Shown here: positions 5,930 to 13,302 of the stretch, in pieces | Numbering within the stretch: position 1 is the stretch's first letter | Layout: each line of letters starts with the position of its first letter | Assembly (NCBI GenBank): GCA_913048595.1 | Contig: CAJWVJ010000006.1 | Span: 1 to 35,770, forward strand | Direction: 5' to 3' | Source of the DNA: an uncultured Alphaproteobacteria bacterium | Lineage (GTDB): Bacteria > Pseudomonadota > Alphaproteobacteria > Puniceispirillales > Puniceispirillaceae | DNA length: 35,770 nt | Position numbers and translations under genes: made by a program | The notes under the pieces: model-generated | Told to the model about the DNA's origin: nothing | The model's input: the letters and a program-made list of their open reading frames with translations, nothing else | Databases searched by the model: none

Positions 5930-6847
5930 ATGGGCGAAGACAGGAACGAGAAGCTGCAGAAACTTCTGGAGTCGGAGTTCGAGGAAACCCTCAATGACAT
6001 GATCGAGGCGGAGTTCAACGAGCCGATCCTGTCCGAGGAGATGCGCAAGCTCTACCGGAAGCAGCATCCCGACAGCCTCGACGGACGAATCTATTTTTCG
6101 AACCTGCTCCGCCTGCAGTCCGAGCTCATCAAGCTTCAGGACTGGGTGGTGGACACCAATGCCAAGATCCTGATCATCTGCGAGGGCCGGGACAGCGCCG
6201 GCAAGGGTGGGGTTATCAAACGCATCACGCAGCGGCTCGACCCGCGCGTCGCCCGGGTCGTGGCGCTTCAGAAGCCGTCCGAGCGGGAAATGTCGCAATG
6301 GTATTTCCAGCGTTATGTGCCGCATCTGCCGGCGGGGGGCGAGATGGTGCTGTTCGACAGGTCCTGGTATAACCGCGCCGGCGTCGAACGCGTGATGGGC
6401 TTTGCCTCCGGAGACGAGGTCGAACAGTTCTTCCAGGACGTGACCGAATTCGAGCGGATGCTGGTGCGGTCCGGAATCATTCTTCTGAAATACTGGTTCT
6501 CCATCACCGACGAGGAACAGCAGCTGCGGTTCAACATGCGGATTCACGACCCGATGAAACAGTGGAAGCTGTCGCCGATGGACCTGGAAAGCCGCATCCG
6601 GTGGGAGCAATATACCAAGGCCAAGGAAGATATGTTCGAGCGCACCTCGATCGATGAAGCGCCCTGGTACATCGTCGAGGGCAACGACAAGAAGCGCGAG
6701 AGGCTGAACTGCATGGAGCACATCCTCTCGAAAATCCCCTACCGGGACATCCCGCACGAGAAGGTGACCCTGCCCGAGCGTGTGTTCAACCCGGACTATG
6801 AACGGCGAACGCTTCCCGACGATCTCTATGTGCCGAAAATCTATTAG
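5930..6847 (+). CDS. ppk2: Polyphosphate kinase 2
   Basis: This enzyme transfers phosphate between inorganic polyphosphate and nucleotides. The 305-aa single domain fits the short PPK2 class. The Walker A loop is GRDSAGKGG (residues 86-94), the Walker B/lid region is VLFDRSWYNRAGVERVMGF (residues 140-158), and the conserved LKYWFSITDEEQ and IHDPMKQWKLSPMD segments follow. ATG 5930 has GGAG at 5924-5927. The leader contains a small hairpin (GGCCGC 5892-5897, GCGGCC 5903-5908). The next plus-strand gene is a Nudix hydrolase with an XRE regulator between, which hints at a phosphate/nucleotide housekeeping group. Whether it favours ADP, GDP or AMP cannot be read from the sequence with certainty. 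Confidence 0.94.
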   Translation: MGEDRNEKLQKLLESEFEETLNDMIEAEFNEPILSEEMRKLYRKQHPDSLDGRIYFSNLLRLQSELIKLQDWVVDTNAKILIICEGRDSAGKGGVIKRITQRLDPRVARVVALQKPSEREMSQWYFQRYVPHLPAGGEMVLFDRSWYNRAGVERVMGFASGDEVEQFFQDVTEFERMLVRSGIILLKYWFSITDEEQQLRFNMRIHDPMKQWKLSPMDLESRIRWEQYTKAKEDMFERTSIDEAPWYIVEGNDKKRERLNCMEHILSKIPYRDIPHEKVTLPERVFNPDYERRTLPDDLYVPKIY

Positions 6848-8512: not shown

Positions 8513-8842
8513 TCAGGAAGAGGCCTCGATGGATACCGAGGTCGACATGGCCTCGCGCTCGAAGGCAAGGACACATACGCCCGAGAAACGGCTCTGCTTG
8601 AAGATGAAGGCCTGATTGATGTCCTCGAGAAGGCCGGGAAGCTCCTGCTCGAAGCGGGTCATCGCGGCGACTTCCTCGAAGCGGACATTCACGGCAAGCT
8701 CGCCCTCCTTCCCGATGGTGACATGCAGCCCGTGAAAATCAAAGACGCTGATCCGGCCCTTGAGAAGATCGCACAGGCTCTGCGCGGCGATCTTGGCTTC
8801 GGATACCGAGGCGAACTTCAGCTGCAGCTGGGTCGAGAACAT
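8513..8842 (-). CDS. Small partner protein 1 of the GAF pair (unknown family)
   Basis: A 109-aa protein, not recognised. It is clearly paralogous to the protein at 12025-12345: both start MF, share the pattern F-x2-V-x-EAK-x-AA near residue 10-20, an SxGKxGxL-type strand (VTIGKEGELAV here), and end with F-x-G-V...F-x-x-E-A. The apparent order of secondary structure is strand, helix, three strands, long helix, strand. No signal peptide, membrane helix or metal motif is seen. The start is 5 nt after the GAF1 stop, with GGAG inside the end of the GAF gene, so the two are translated together. A complex between the two products is the obvious inference. Confidence 0.75.
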   Translation of the reverse strand: MFSTQLQLKFASVSEAKIAAQSLCDLLKGRISVFDFHGLHVTIGKEGELAVNVRFEEVAAMTRFEQELPGLLEDINQAFIFKQSRFSGVCVLAFEREAMSTSVSIEASS

Positions 8843-8847
8843 GGTCG

Positions 8848-9738
8848 CTACTCCAGCTTTCCGAGAAGATCGTCAAGACCGCCGCCCTGCGGTGCCAGGC
8901 TCTGGTCGCTGCCGCGGTAGGTCTCGGGCGCAAGGCCGAGCGCGCTGCGAAGGTCGGTGCCGTCGCGTGTCAGCTGCCAGCCGCCTTCAATGGCGGTGAT
9001 GATGCCGTCGCGTTCCATCATGTCGATGACGTCGGGAAGCGCCGTGCCGCGCGCGCAGAAATCAAGAAAGCCGATCAGCTCGTCAAGGGTGCCATCCGGG
9101 GCAAACTGCCTGAACTTGGCAAGCATCGTGGCGACACGCGATGCGGTCAGGTTGCTCTGGTCCACCATCATCTGGATCTGCGCGGCGGCCGTCGTGGCAA
9201 GCTTGCGCATCAGCCTGACCTGGCTGTTGGTCAGCGACAGCGGTTCGGGATGGGTGCCGCACAGGGTGCCGAGGACGACACCGTCGGCTGTGTTCAGCGG
9301 AAACCCGGCATAGCCGCGGCAGTTCAGCGGCGGCTTGGTCAGCGGTGTGCTGGCAAAGCGCGGGTCGGCGTTGGCATCCGGCACCAGCACCGGTTCCGGT
9401 GACAGAAGCGCGTACTGGCAGAAGGTCATGTCCTGTGGGACGCCAAGAAGCGGGTCAAAATTCTGGCCGGCACCGCTGATGGTGTATTGGCACGCACCGT
9501 CGAGAAGGTTCAGCATGGCGTTGTCGCACCGCATGATCAGCTTCGCCACTTCGGTGAAAATCTCGAACTGCGCGCTGACATTGCGGCCGATCAGCCCGGT
9601 TTCATTGACCCTTGTGGCGCGAAGCGCCTCATTGTCAGGCGCCGGTGCCGGCGTCACCTTCGCCGATGTGGCGATGGCAAGGCCAAGCTTCATGACATTT
9701 CCAAGCCCCTGCGCCTTTATGGCTCTTCGCAACGACAT
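8848..9738 (-). CDS. GAF-domain sensor protein 1 with C-terminal winged-helix-like segment
   Basis: About 296 aa. Residues about 45-205 form a GAF domain: an F-x-I-F-x-E-V-A-K-L-I helix, CQYTISGAG, FCQYALL, a CRGYAGFPL loop and VLGTLCG. A helical linker (LTASRVATMLAKF) leads to a segment with winged-helix character (LPDVIDMMERDGII, GGWQLTRDG) and a short acidic-leucine tail (GLDDLLGKLE). There is no kinase, GGDEF or phosphatase domain. It is paralogous along its whole length to the protein at 12348-13175. ATG 9738 follows GAGG; an ATG at 9693 matches the paralogue's N-terminus and also has GGA upstream, so the start is uncertain. It follows the membrane protein gene by 96 bp. Confidence 0.8.
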   Translation of the reverse strand: MSLRRAIKAQGLGNVMKLGLAIATSAKVTPAPAPDNEALRATRVNETGLIGRNVSAQFEIFTEVAKLIMRCDNAMLNLLDGACQYTISGAGQNFDPLLGVPQDMTFCQYALLSPEPVLVPDANADPRFASTPLTKPPLNCRGYAGFPLNTADGVVLGTLCGTHPEPLSLTNSQVRLMRKLATTAAAQIQMMVDQSNLTASRVATMLAKFRQFAPDGTLDELIGFLDFCARGTALPDVIDMMERDGIITAIEGGWQLTRDGTDLRSALGLAPETYRGSDQSLAPQGGGLDDLLGKLE

Positions 9739-9834
9739 CAACGAACCTCACGTAACTGCCTTGCCAGTGTCAGCCCGGCCGCCCCGCAAGTCCAGTGGCA
9801 TCTCGTCACTGCGCTGACGGCGGCGGCCGCGCGC

Positions 9835-10257
9835 CTAGCCGGAAAATGCGACAGCCGCGCCACCGATGGCCAGAACCAGCCCAAGCCGGCCAGCCTGGAC
9901 AAGCCGCTTCATCAGCGCGGTGTTCGGCGGCCGCTTGGCCTTGATGGCCTGATGAACATGAAGATTGGCATAGGCTGAAATGCCGAGAACAATGGCGGCC
10001 CCCAGCAGCTTGACATGAAACGCGCCGTTGATCGCCATGCCGCCATAGATTAGGTAGGACAGGCCGATTCCGGTGACCCACAGCGCGACAATCGACCCCA
10101 GGCCGATATAGCCGAGAAGCGCGAAGGCCTTGCCGATATAAGGCGGCGGGGCCTCGCCGGCGCGGAGATAGGCGGCCTGGATCACACCGCTGCCGACGGT
10201 CACGCCCCCGGCGAACAGGATCGAGAAGAAATGCAGGATTTTCAGAACGACTTCCAT
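9835..10257 (-). CDS. Four-helix membrane protein, CopD/HemJ-like
   Basis: A 140-aa integral membrane protein with four predicted helices (about residues 5-30, 42-68, 80-98 and 118-138). The opening ILHFFSILFAGG has the conserved His-in-helix pattern seen in CopD-like and HemJ-like proteins, and the third helix is KLLGAAIVLGISAY followed by a basic loop. A role in metal or haem-related membrane chemistry is possible but not demonstrable. The ATG at 10257 is preceded by GAGGGGAG. It is the first gene of the minus-strand run that continues with GAF1, its small partner and the HAD protein, so it may be the membrane component of that group. Confidence 0.7.
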   Translation of the reverse strand: MEVVLKILHFFSILFAGGVTVGSGVIQAAYLRAGEAPPPYIGKAFALLGYIGLGSIVALWVTGIGLSYLIYGGMAINGAFHVKLLGAAIVLGISAYANLHVHQAIKAKRPPNTALMKRLVQAGRLGLVLAIGGAAVAFSG

Positions 10258-10458
10258 GGTTTCGGACTCCCCTCTTAAAGGCCGGTTAACCGCGCCGACA
10301 CCTTCAAAGGCTACACTAATTTCTAATGAAGATTGATTCGAATTAGAGTCTTAATTCCTTTAATCTCAGCGCTCCTGACGTGCGTTTTGTTGTGGACTGG
10401 AATACAAATTTCCTTGTTTTGGTTCGTGCCCCATCTGCTTCCCCTTCATCCGCTATCC
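10258..10458. promoter_or_regulatory. Divergent intergenic region with an AT-rich island and two palindromes
   Basis: No gene is seen here. CGGTTAACCG (10283-10292) is a perfect 10-bp palindrome 26 bp upstream of the membrane-protein start. A markedly AT-rich stretch (about 10312-10370) contains an inverted repeat TCTAAT/ATTAGA (10322-10327 and 10342-10347). These are reasonable places for a promoter and operator serving the minus-strand GAF1 group, but no clear -35/-10 pair stands out in either direction. Confidence 0.4.
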
Positions 10459-11234
10459 TTGACCAGCCCGCCGGTATGCCTGTCGCGGCTGGCGGCTTGA
10501 CTGTGCCTTGTTGTCATGCTCGGCCTGTCCGCCGGCGTCGCGCATGCCAAGCCCGACGCATCGCTTCCCTCGCGCGCGGACCGGACGCTTGTGCCTGCCA
10601 GTCGGACCATTGTAACGATTTCCTGCAATCGACCGACACGGAAAGCTCGCCGAATGTCGACGACCCCACCAGCATCGGGTCGATCCCCACCGGCATAAAG
10701 CTCGGCACCGAGGATTTCTTCATCCTTACCGAGGCCGAACGTGACGCGCTGTTCGATCCGGGCGTGACCGCAAACGGCACATTTCGCGTGATCTATTCCG
10801 GCGCCGAGGCAGGCACCGGCAGCCCGGCAGGAAGCTGGGACATCGACCAGACGGTCAATGTCGACTATAAGAGCCGCGCCATCACCGTCAATGGCACGGT
10901 CAGCGCCAACAGCATCGGCTATTTCGACGGGGGCAGCGACAGCTTCACCTATCAGAACAGCATGGCCTATACCGACACCGAGCTTGGCACCTATTCGGTG
11001 TTCGGCAAGACGTCCAGCACAAACGCCAATGCCACCTATGAGCTGAAGAACACCAACGGCGACACGGTTCATGTCGACATTCATGACCAGGTCGGTTTCA
11101 TGAAGGACGCAAACAGCGTGAACGCCGCGCTGATCAATACGAATATCACCCCGTCGGCGGGAAATCCGTTCGGTTACAAGGATGACACCAACCAGCTGAT
11201 CCAGCAGCGCTGGCGTCTTCTCGAGCCGAAATAG
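10459..11234 (+). pseudogene. Putative secreted protein with a damaged or mis-read 5' end
   Basis: From about 10590 to the stop at 11234 one frame has convincing codon bias and encodes ~215 residues rich in N, T, S, D and G (CACQSDHCNDF, IPTGIKLGTEDFF, SWDIDQTVNVDYKSRAITVN), typical of an exported beta-rich protein; the family is not recognised. No good start exists in that frame. In the +1 frame just upstream there is a signal-peptide-like stretch (LCLVVMLGLSAGVAHA-K at 10501-10548). It is preceded in the same frame by SRLAA and a TGA at 10498-10500, and it continues in good codon use to about 10590 before losing coding character. So a native gene probably lost its frame once near 10590 and gained a stop in the signal peptide, or contains sequencing errors. 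A GTG at 10380 keeps the main frame open but gives an Arg-rich, non-coding-looking N-terminus. Confidence 0.5.
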
Positions 11235-11255
11235 GGCGCGCCGGGACAGCAGGCC

Positions 11256-11510
11256 TCAGATCAGGTCGCCTTCGGACACGCCGATCTTGGCCATGGCCTG
11301 TTCATTCAGCGCCTGCAGCGCCCGCAACACCTCGAGATGCGAGCTGGCAAGCCCGTCATGTTCAAAGGTTTCGATCACCACACCGCTATTGTTGTTGGCG
11401 CGCATCAGAAAGCGGCTATAGCCGCCATCCTGGCTTGTCTTCGCCACCGCCTCGATCAGCGGCCAGATGGAAGGCGCCAGCAGGGTAAAGGTGATCGTCC
11501 GGCAATACAT
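11256..11510 (-). CDS. Small protein of unknown function, coupled to the GYD-like gene
   Basis: 84 aa, not recognised. It starts MYCRTITFTLLAPSIWPLIE and has an apparent strand-helix-strand-strand-helix layout (RFLMRANNN, GVVIETFEHDG, then a helix HLEVLRALQALNEQAMAKI). This is compatible with half of a dimeric alpha/beta-barrel, but that is a guess. Its ATG overlaps the stop of the preceding gene (TGATG), so it is translationally coupled to it. It ends 21 bp from the convergent secreted-protein gene. Confidence 0.68.
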   Translation of the reverse strand: MYCRTITFTLLAPSIWPLIEAVAKTSQDGGYSRFLMRANNNSGVVIETFEHDGLASSHLEVLRALQALNEQAMAKIGVSEGDLI

Positions 11511-11860
11511 CAGTCGATACCCGCGACCTGCATCGACGAGACATAGGCCCCCATGCGTTCATGGCCATATTCGAACACCTCTTTATAGGTGGCCGAATCA
11601 TAGGCCCGCGCCCAGGTGATATTGGAAAAGTTGCCGGTCGAATAGACGATGTTGACCATGGCCTCGATGGCGTTGTCATCCGCGGCGCTGGCTACGGAAA
11701 TGAAATTGAAATCCATGCCGTTGGTGAAAACGAATTCATGAACGGTGATGTTGAAGGCGTCAAAGAAGGGCTGAAGAAGTTCAAGCCTGTTCTGCGGCTT
11801 GTTCAGCATCGCGGCGGCGAAATCGGCACTTGTCTTCCCGTAGATCAGATATTTGTTCAT
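11510..11860 (-). CDS. GYD-domain-like small protein
   Basis: 116 aa. The pattern MNKYLIYGKTS, then a helix, then a strand pair around VHEFVFTNGMDFNFISV, then a helix with alanine-rich start and WARAYDS resembles the GYD family (small dimeric alpha/beta-barrel proteins of unknown function), although the name-giving GYD triplet is replaced by NGMD. ATG 11860 has GGAG 6 nt upstream. It is coupled to the 84-aa gene downstream and lies 164 bp after small partner 2, possibly in the same transcript. Confidence 0.62.
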   Translation of the reverse strand: MNKYLIYGKTSADFAAAMLNKPQNRLELLQPFFDAFNITVHEFVFTNGMDFNFISVASAADDNAIEAMVNIVYSTGNFSNITWARAYDSATYKEVFEYGHERMGAYVSSMQVAGID

Positions 11861-11921
11861 GGCTCACTCCGTTTTGCAGTGCTGAAGAACAGCGGCCGGA
11901 CAAATGACGCGGTCAGGCATG

Positions 11922-11959
11922 GCGCGGCGGCATGACGAAAGTCGCCATTCCCGCCGCGC
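11922..11959. other. GC-rich stem-loop between small partner 2 and the GYD-like gene
   Basis: GCGCGGCGG (11922-11930) pairs perfectly with CCGCCGCGC (11951-11959); the 20-nt loop can form an inner GAC-GAAA-GTC hairpin. No T-tract follows on either strand, so it is more likely an intercistronic structure than a terminator. The rest of the 164-bp gap (11861-12024) shows no gene. Confidence 0.4.
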
Positions 11960-12024
11960 TACCTCTGCCGCGCTTCGTTTCGGGTAGTGGACAGCAGTGC
12001 CATGCGCGCCCCGGCGCAGCGTCT

Positions 12025-12345
12025 CTAGTTCGCCGACACCTCGGCCTTGATGGCCTCGGCCTCGTAATTGAAGATGTAGACGCCGGCGAAAGTGTCCTCT
12101 TTGTAGACCATGGTCTCCTTGAGGTCCCGGAACACTTCGGCCGCCTTGGTCTCGAAGATCTTCAGATCATCGCTTGTCTCGAACTTCGTCTGGATTGACA
12201 GGCTGCCGCATTTGCCGATGGAAATGTTCAGCGAGCGCATGTTGTTGCTGACAATCAGCTTGCCGAAGGCATCGGAGATGAAGGAGGCCGCCACCTTGGC
12301 TTCTGCCACTCCGTTGAACTTGAAATTGAAAATTTTCGCAAACAT
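12025..12345 (-). CDS. Small partner protein 2 of the GAF pair (unknown family)
   Basis: A 106-aa paralogue of the protein at 8513-8842. Shared features are MF at the start, FNGVAEAKVAA near residues 10-20, LNISIGKCGSLSI in the middle strands, and FAGVYIFNYEAEA near the end. It is more Lys/Asn-rich than copy 1. No signal or membrane segment is present. Its ATG is 2 nt after the GAF2 stop, and the ribosome-binding sequence lies within the end of the GAF2 gene. Conservation of the pairing and order in both copies argues that the small protein and the GAF protein act together. Confidence 0.75.
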   Translation of the reverse strand: MFAKIFNFKFNGVAEAKVAASFISDAFGKLIVSNNMRSLNISIGKCGSLSIQTKFETSDDLKIFETKAAEVFRDLKETMVYKEDTFAGVYIFNYEAEAIKAEVSAN

Positions 12346-12347
12346 GG

Positions 12348-13175
12348 TCAGTCAATCTCCGCAAACAACTCCTCGAGCAACGCGTCCGCCTCGCTGCCAT
12401 CCATCTTGATCCGCTTCATCGCCTTCTGCTGAAGGTTCATGTCGAACTGCAGCTTGCGGCCGGCCTCGGTCAGTTGCACCAGGCCCCCGTCATCCGCTTC
12501 GGCAAGACCAACCTTGATGATGCCGGCGGCATCATCGGCCGTCACATTCAGCTCCGAGCAGAGCGACACATAGATCTTGAAGTCATCAAGACCGAACCCG
12601 GCATCGACCTTCTGGAAATGCGACAGCGCCTCGAGCATGCGCTGCGATGTCAGCTCCTTCTGCTTGATCTGCAGGTCCAGCATATGCGCGATGCTGCTGG
12701 TGATCTTCTTGACCTGCGAAATCTGCTCGTCATTCAGCCCCTTCGGCCCGCTGAAATTCATCATGCATAGCGTGCCAAGCGCGAAATTCTCGCTGTTGAT
12801 CACCGGGAAGCCGGCATAGCCGGGCCCCTTTTCCATGCCTGCCAAATTCGGGTGGTCCTGCCAGGTGGGGTCTTTCAGCATGTCTTCCATCAGAAGCGGT
12901 TCGCTATCCAGCAGCACATAGGAACAGACATTCAGCTCGCCGCGCTCGGTCTTTGAGCCCGGCGTGAAATCCTCACGGCCCGCGCCGGCGATGGAACATT
13001 GCATCTCGCCGTCATAAAGGCTGAAGGTGGCTGTCTCGAATCCTGTGATGTCTTTGGCCAGATCGCAGTAAATCTGGAACAGATCGGGGTTTGGCGCGTC
13101 AATCAGCCCGGTCTTCACAACCGTCTGTGCGCGCAGTTCCTCGTTTGCGGGACGAGGCGCCAAGCCCATATTCAT
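12348..13175 (-). CDS. GAF-domain sensor protein 2 with C-terminal winged-helix-like segment
   Basis: 275 aa, full-length paralogue of the protein at 8848-9738. The N-terminal NEELRAQTVVKTGLI matches NEALRATRVNETGLI of copy 1. The GAF domain spans residues about 27-172 (CSIAGAGREDF, NVCSYVLLDSEPLL, GYAGFPVINSENFALGTLC). The linker is LTSQRMLEALSHF, and residues about 195-245 look winged-helix-like (DDAAGIIKVGLAEADDGGLV, QLTEAGRKL). It ends with an acidic-leucine tail (ADALLEELFAEID). Paired Cys residues occur in the GAF domain (Cys84 and Cys137 align with Cys residues of copy 1), so redox or ligand sensing is possible. GGAGGT lies 5 nt before ATG 13175. Confidence 0.82.
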   Translation of the reverse strand: MNMGLAPRPANEELRAQTVVKTGLIDAPNPDLFQIYCDLAKDITGFETATFSLYDGEMQCSIAGAGREDFTPGSKTERGELNVCSYVLLDSEPLLMEDMLKDPTWQDHPNLAGMEKGPGYAGFPVINSENFALGTLCMMNFSGPKGLNDEQISQVKKITSSIAHMLDLQIKQKELTSQRMLEALSHFQKVDAGFGLDDFKIYVSLCSELNVTADDAAGIIKVGLAEADDGGLVQLTEAGRKLQFDMNLQQKAMKRIKMDGSEADALLEELFAEID

Positions 13176-13240
13176 GATGTACCTCCATAAATTGGAACCG
13201 TCGCGACAAGGCACGACCACTATGTCTTTTGAGGTATTCG

Positions 13241-13266: not shown

Positions 13267-13302
13267 AAGTTTAGTGTGTGGTGCAAGCTTCCCCGATGTC
13301 AA

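Follow-up and report, generated by a model that had tools for sequence, protein, structure and literature searches.

A gene for a GAF-domain protein and a small gene directly downstream of it form an almost inseparable pair among a restricted group of alphaproteobacteria: the two adjoin each other, are present or absent together, have been duplicated together and are both held under purifying selection. That the pair is a functional unit, as the initial annotation of this DNA had proposed, is strongly supported by near-obligate adjacency, identical phyletic patterns, broadly congruent trees and varied gene contexts. Two such pairs lie in the window (the whole stretch analysed here, 35,770 nucleotides from an uncultured member of the Puniceispirillaceae; Table 1), and we put at about one half the probability that the pair encodes a sensor-partner complex, i.e., a two-gene cytosolic signalling unit in which a GAF sensor acts with a dedicated partner.

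The four reading frames bear out the arrangement originally described, namely, two paralogous GAF genes each followed by a paralogous small gene, across gaps of 5 nt in the first pair and 2 nt in the second. Sequence identity is 31% both between GAF-1 and GAF-2 (over 253 aa, E 1e-33) and between small-1 and small-2 (over 104 aa, E 3e-19); the GAF-1 frame has an alternative TTG start 3 bases upstream. These are the only copies in their genome, which thus has exactly two pairs (assembly 1.87 Mb, 69% complete). Purifying selection between relatives is strong for both genes, with dN/dS of 0.025–0.08 for the small genes and 0.05–0.15 for the GAF genes.

Table 1. Features of the window associated with the two GAF/small gene pairs (window positions; residue numbers where so stated)
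Feature	Position	Strand	Description
small-1	8513..8842	-	109 aa; paralogue of small-2
GAF-1	8848..9738	-	296 aa; paralogue of GAF-2 with N-terminal extension; C-terminal tail DDLLGKL
Second two-gene cassette	11256-11860	-	Between the two GAF pairs; 116-aa GYD-like protein, then 84-aa protein
small-2	12025..12345	-	106 aa; predicted beta-alpha-beta-beta-alpha-beta (dimeric alpha+beta barrel / ferredoxin-like) fold
GAF-2	12348..13175	-	275 aa; GAF domain at about residues 30-170, long helix 149-190
GAF-2, C-terminal half			Winged-helix-like region at about residues 191-245, basic linker, acidic C-terminal helix 260-274
GAF-2 5' leader	13180..13236	-	TACCTC (13236-13231) complementary to Shine-Dalgarno GAGGTA (13185-13180); suggestive
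Possible hairpin in GAF-2 leader	13217-13212 / 13205-13200	-	Enclosed by the TACCTC/GAGGTA pairing
TTGACA, -35-like hexamer	13297..13302	-	Upstream of GAF-2, in block GAA..ACAATTGACATC conserved in orthologous upstream regions

We surveyed 61 related genomes, using small-2 as the query for the small family and a GAF profile at a threshold of E 1e-10, and the same 35 genomes carried both families; most of these relatives are known from incomplete assemblies of single cells or metagenomes, so that absence from any one genome is uncertain. A small gene adjoins 58 of the 59 full-length GAF genes. Viewed from the other side, the initial annotation had suggested checking whether small-gene homologues stand mostly without a GAF neighbour, and the opposite was found: a same-strand GAF gene lies immediately upstream of 72 of the 74 distinct small genes. 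Of the two exceptions, one is cut off where its contig ends (L074) and the other is a decayed copy that has lost its N-terminal part (L075/L167). An in-frame stop codon breaks the small gene of one further genome (G029). Gaps between the two genes are mostly -4 to +14 nt with peaks at -1, +2 and +4 nt, a clustering typical of translational coupling. The sole partner-less GAF gene (L166:2667-3488) is a second GAF-winged-helix gene in a complete genome (G016) that also has a coupled pair; it is followed directly by an opposite-strand gene and retains its C-terminal tail. The existence of such a gene suggests either an independent function of its own or a partner borrowed from the other locus. 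Because this paralogue stands alone, a GAF protein of the family may sometimes do without a partner of its own.

The module is clade-restricted rather than general, since it yielded few matches in broader samples. The small family was detected in five of 385 genomes drawn across the class, and those five also contain all the full-length GAF matches, none weaker than E 6e-58; the E-values then jump to 6e-36, and matches from there on cover the GAF domain alone or little more. In one of the five, from a distant family (G164), the pair is strongly diverged and still coupled. A phylum-wide sample of 398 genomes returned the window's own genome as its only match. Named relatives among the matches are mostly alphaproteobacteria of the SAR116 cluster, and the window's own genus includes genomes with both pairs, with one pair or with none.

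The two families have evolved largely in step. Their pairwise distance matrices correlate with a Pearson coefficient of 0.87, a value reached in none of 1000 permutations (maximum 0.15), and of 0.69 when only divergent pairs are taken, part of which correlation is shared species history. Maximum-likelihood trees of the 36 distinct pairs have 18 of 33 splits in common and agree in their main clades; the four well-supported conflicts involve the G164 pair, which sits on a long branch, and relationships within a single shallow clade. The window's two pair types are old: the identity of small-2 is 51–63% with its equivalents in several further genera, against 31% with small-1. They adjoin each other in another genome (G002), as they do in the window, and in another marine alphaproteobacterial assembly two strongly diverged pairs stand back to back and are divergently transcribed (L107:3863-6321); duplication has acted on whole pairs, not on single genes. 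Co-transcribed genes whose products never touch would likewise show correlated trees and adjacency, and some 36 distinct pairs for about 380 columns are too few for a co-evolutionary contact analysis.

Neighbouring genes vary by clade (acyl-CoA synthetase-like, alpha/beta hydrolase, aldehyde-dehydrogenase-like and others, some named by eye), and, given these many different contexts, the pair moves as a unit; there is no fixed third gene across clades. In one SAR116 clade, a cluster of 17 loci (including L131:6416-7192) has a gene with a cyclic-nucleotide-binding domain downstream of the pair, the domain being probably two in tandem as judged by eye, with no obvious output domain in the protein. 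Polyphosphate kinase-like and Ppx/GppA phosphatase-like genes, also named by eye, lie directly upstream of the pair at about nine loci similar to L155:1527-5122 and at that locus itself, all of one clade; the window contains a PPK2 gene (5930-6847), and a link between the two is possibly coincidence. Also in the window, a 284-aa open reading frame that runs in the opposite direction to the GAF genes (10380-11234, +) has no Pfam match and may or may not be a gene. The second cassette, whose 116-aa protein resembles Pfam GYD below the cut-off (E 2e-4), was considered as a possible part of the module and rejected: its two genes occur side by side in the same 16 of the 61 relatives, in many cases on contigs that lack a GAF pair, and one of these genomes (G035) has no such pair at all.

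GAF-1 matches PF01590 at 54.8 bits (cut-off 22.4) and GAF-2 matches PF13185 at 36.4 bits (cut-off 28.6); all 23 aligned members of the family match the GAF_2 profile. No other Pfam domain was found in GAF-1 or GAF-2. The initial annotation had described the large proteins as lacking an enzymatic output domain and ending in a winged-helix-like part and an acidic tail; there is no GGDEF match, and GAF is the only Pfam domain. The winged helix is weakly supported, by profiles of Sso10a (E 0.0013) and HTH_45 (best E 7.6e-4, in two of 20 members). Unlike those winged-helix proteins, the region is on average acidic rather than basic and is fused to a GAF domain: its net charge averages -2.9, and that of the recognition-helix region -1.4, values unusual for DNA binding. 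The closest known GAF domains are of the type of Dcsbis (PA2771, PDB 4zmu; Z 20.4, rmsd 2.5 over 165 residues, ~30% identity), with which our proteins share the N-terminal segment and the positions of both conserved cysteines; our proteins differ from it in carrying the winged-helix-like region and acidic tail instead of GGDEF, and in having a separate partner gene. In Dcsbis, the GAF domain encloses a large pocket that is believed to accommodate an unknown ligand (PMC4937426). Our GAF family has two invariant cysteines, 84 and 137, but since Dcsbis has both, they are not special to the family. The last helix is of low confidence in the structural model, which might fit a segment that becomes ordered upon binding; conservation of the C-terminal tail is not above that of the GAF domain.

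Sequence and profile searches of the small family against Pfam, NCBIfam and PDB gave nothing significant, in line with the initial annotation, which recognised no family for it and had asked about a match to some well-known unrelated one. At the level of structure, the fold is a common one. The AlphaFold (AF2) model is strand-helix-strand-strand-helix-strand with a mean pLDDT of 85.8 and an uncertain C-terminus, and its closest folds are structural-genomics 'dimeric ferredoxin-like' proteins of uncultured marine organisms and ABM-type proteins: Foldseek gave E 2.6e-5 for 2op5, and VIA gave Z 11.4 (rmsd 2.5 over 92 residues) for 2od4 and Z 10–11 for many ABM chains. We therefore assign the small protein, as predicted by this model, to the ordinary dimeric alpha+beta-barrel (ferredoxin-like) fold. 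Its likeness to ABM-like proteins (PDB 2od4, 2op5, 3e8o, PA0709, LsrG) lies in that predicted fold, while it differs from them in having neither a sequence-level match nor conserved catalytic-type residues: positions conserved at ≥80% hold K, E, S and hydrophobic or small residues, and none holds H, W, N, R, Y, C or D. The lack of such conserved residues favours a structural or binding role, though an enzyme is possible. The adaptor role originally suggested is plausible; nothing observed speaks for the recognition of two signals, which the initial annotation had also inferred. PII and PII-like proteins are likewise small, ferredoxin-like and given to signalling, and SbtB is among the structural matches, but with a TM-score below those of the ABM-type matches; we rejected a PII identity because the beta2-beta3 turn of four residues leaves no room for a T-loop. 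BLUF was also rejected, being absent among the listed fold matches; the residues that we presume to be required there for flavin binding are not conserved.

In the sensor-partner complex that we favour, we infer ligand sensing, a physical complex, and the direction and nature of an output. The GAF domain would bind a small ligand, or read redox state via its two invariant cysteines; the protein would dimerise through its long helix; and the winged-helix region and C-terminal helix would bind a dedicated homodimeric alpha+beta-barrel partner, which would pass the change in the GAF domain onward. The window's two pairs are old paralogues, and each GAF protein would have its own matched partner. 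The main rival, which we consider possible though rather unlikely, is a one-component regulator encoded beside its target enzyme: the GAF-winged-helix protein would bind DNA and sense the substrate or product of an ABM-type small enzyme (cofactor-free oxygenase or isomerase-like). The ABM-family enzymes among the closest folds and the weak winged-helix matches would fit such an arrangement, as would the conserved block around the -35-like hexamer upstream of GAF-2, in which TTGAC is invariant in 10 sequences (a sigma-70/terminator scan gave no notable excess and did not pick up this TTGACA near 13302). Points against an enzyme with its DNA-binding regulator are the lack of any conserved catalytic-type residue, the negative charge of the winged helix and recognition-helix region, and downstream metabolic genes that change between clades.

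The leader of GAF-2 raises a different idea, that the RRM-like ferredoxin fold, the winged helix or both bind a leader that pairs with the Shine-Dalgarno sequence, and so autoregulate translation. In most of the window's clade, a TACCTC or ACCTC with complementarity to the ribosome-binding site does lie at -55 to -69, with differing inner hairpins, and translational control of GAF-2 is possible. As an account of the pair we consider it improbable, since the feature is confined to one paralogue and one clade; with few sequences and folding energy that is not significant, none of the leaders taken by itself outdoes its shuffled versions in folding, the window's minimum-free-energy fold lacks the anti-SD helix, and complementarity counted over all pairs comes to 11, against a shuffle mean of 4.4 and a shuffle maximum of 11. 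There was no Rfam match. A toxin-antitoxin or other selfish pair would explain tight coupling, several copies per genome and patchy presence, but is very unlikely given tree-like inheritance over the order, the GAF sensor domain and strong purifying selection; small-2 had no match in plasmids and no relative in viral contigs, and GAF-2 had a single phage match (22%, over the GAF part). That the genes are mere operon neighbours, together by chance or inertia, is hardly credible, being contradicted by a survey in which the coupling persists in several families whose flanking genes are entirely different.

Each fold is known. As far as the searched libraries and papers show, neither the small family itself nor its inseparable association with a GAF gene appears to have been described before. 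A full-text search, of incomplete literature coverage, returned no paper with both SAR116 and a GAF domain, and we found no literature on GAF proteins with alpha+beta-barrel adaptors. A fuller version of the sensor-partner reading remains tentative, namely, that a non-enzymatic GAF-winged-helix sensor works exclusively via a dedicated, non-enzymatic alpha+beta-barrel partner, as a previously undescribed bacterial signalling system with several matched paralogous pairs per cell.

Now that a sensor family and an unnamed small family have proved effectively inseparable, two 'hypothetical' genes become a single unit open to testing. Natural contrasts for the role of the partner exist within the window's genus, whose genomes have both pairs, one pair or none, and in the partner-less sensor of a complete relative. 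SAR116 bacteria have been described as globally ubiquitous in the sea (PMC3368413). If the reading is true, one of the ocean's abundant bacterial groups would have a dedicated sensor-partner system, with several pairs per cell.
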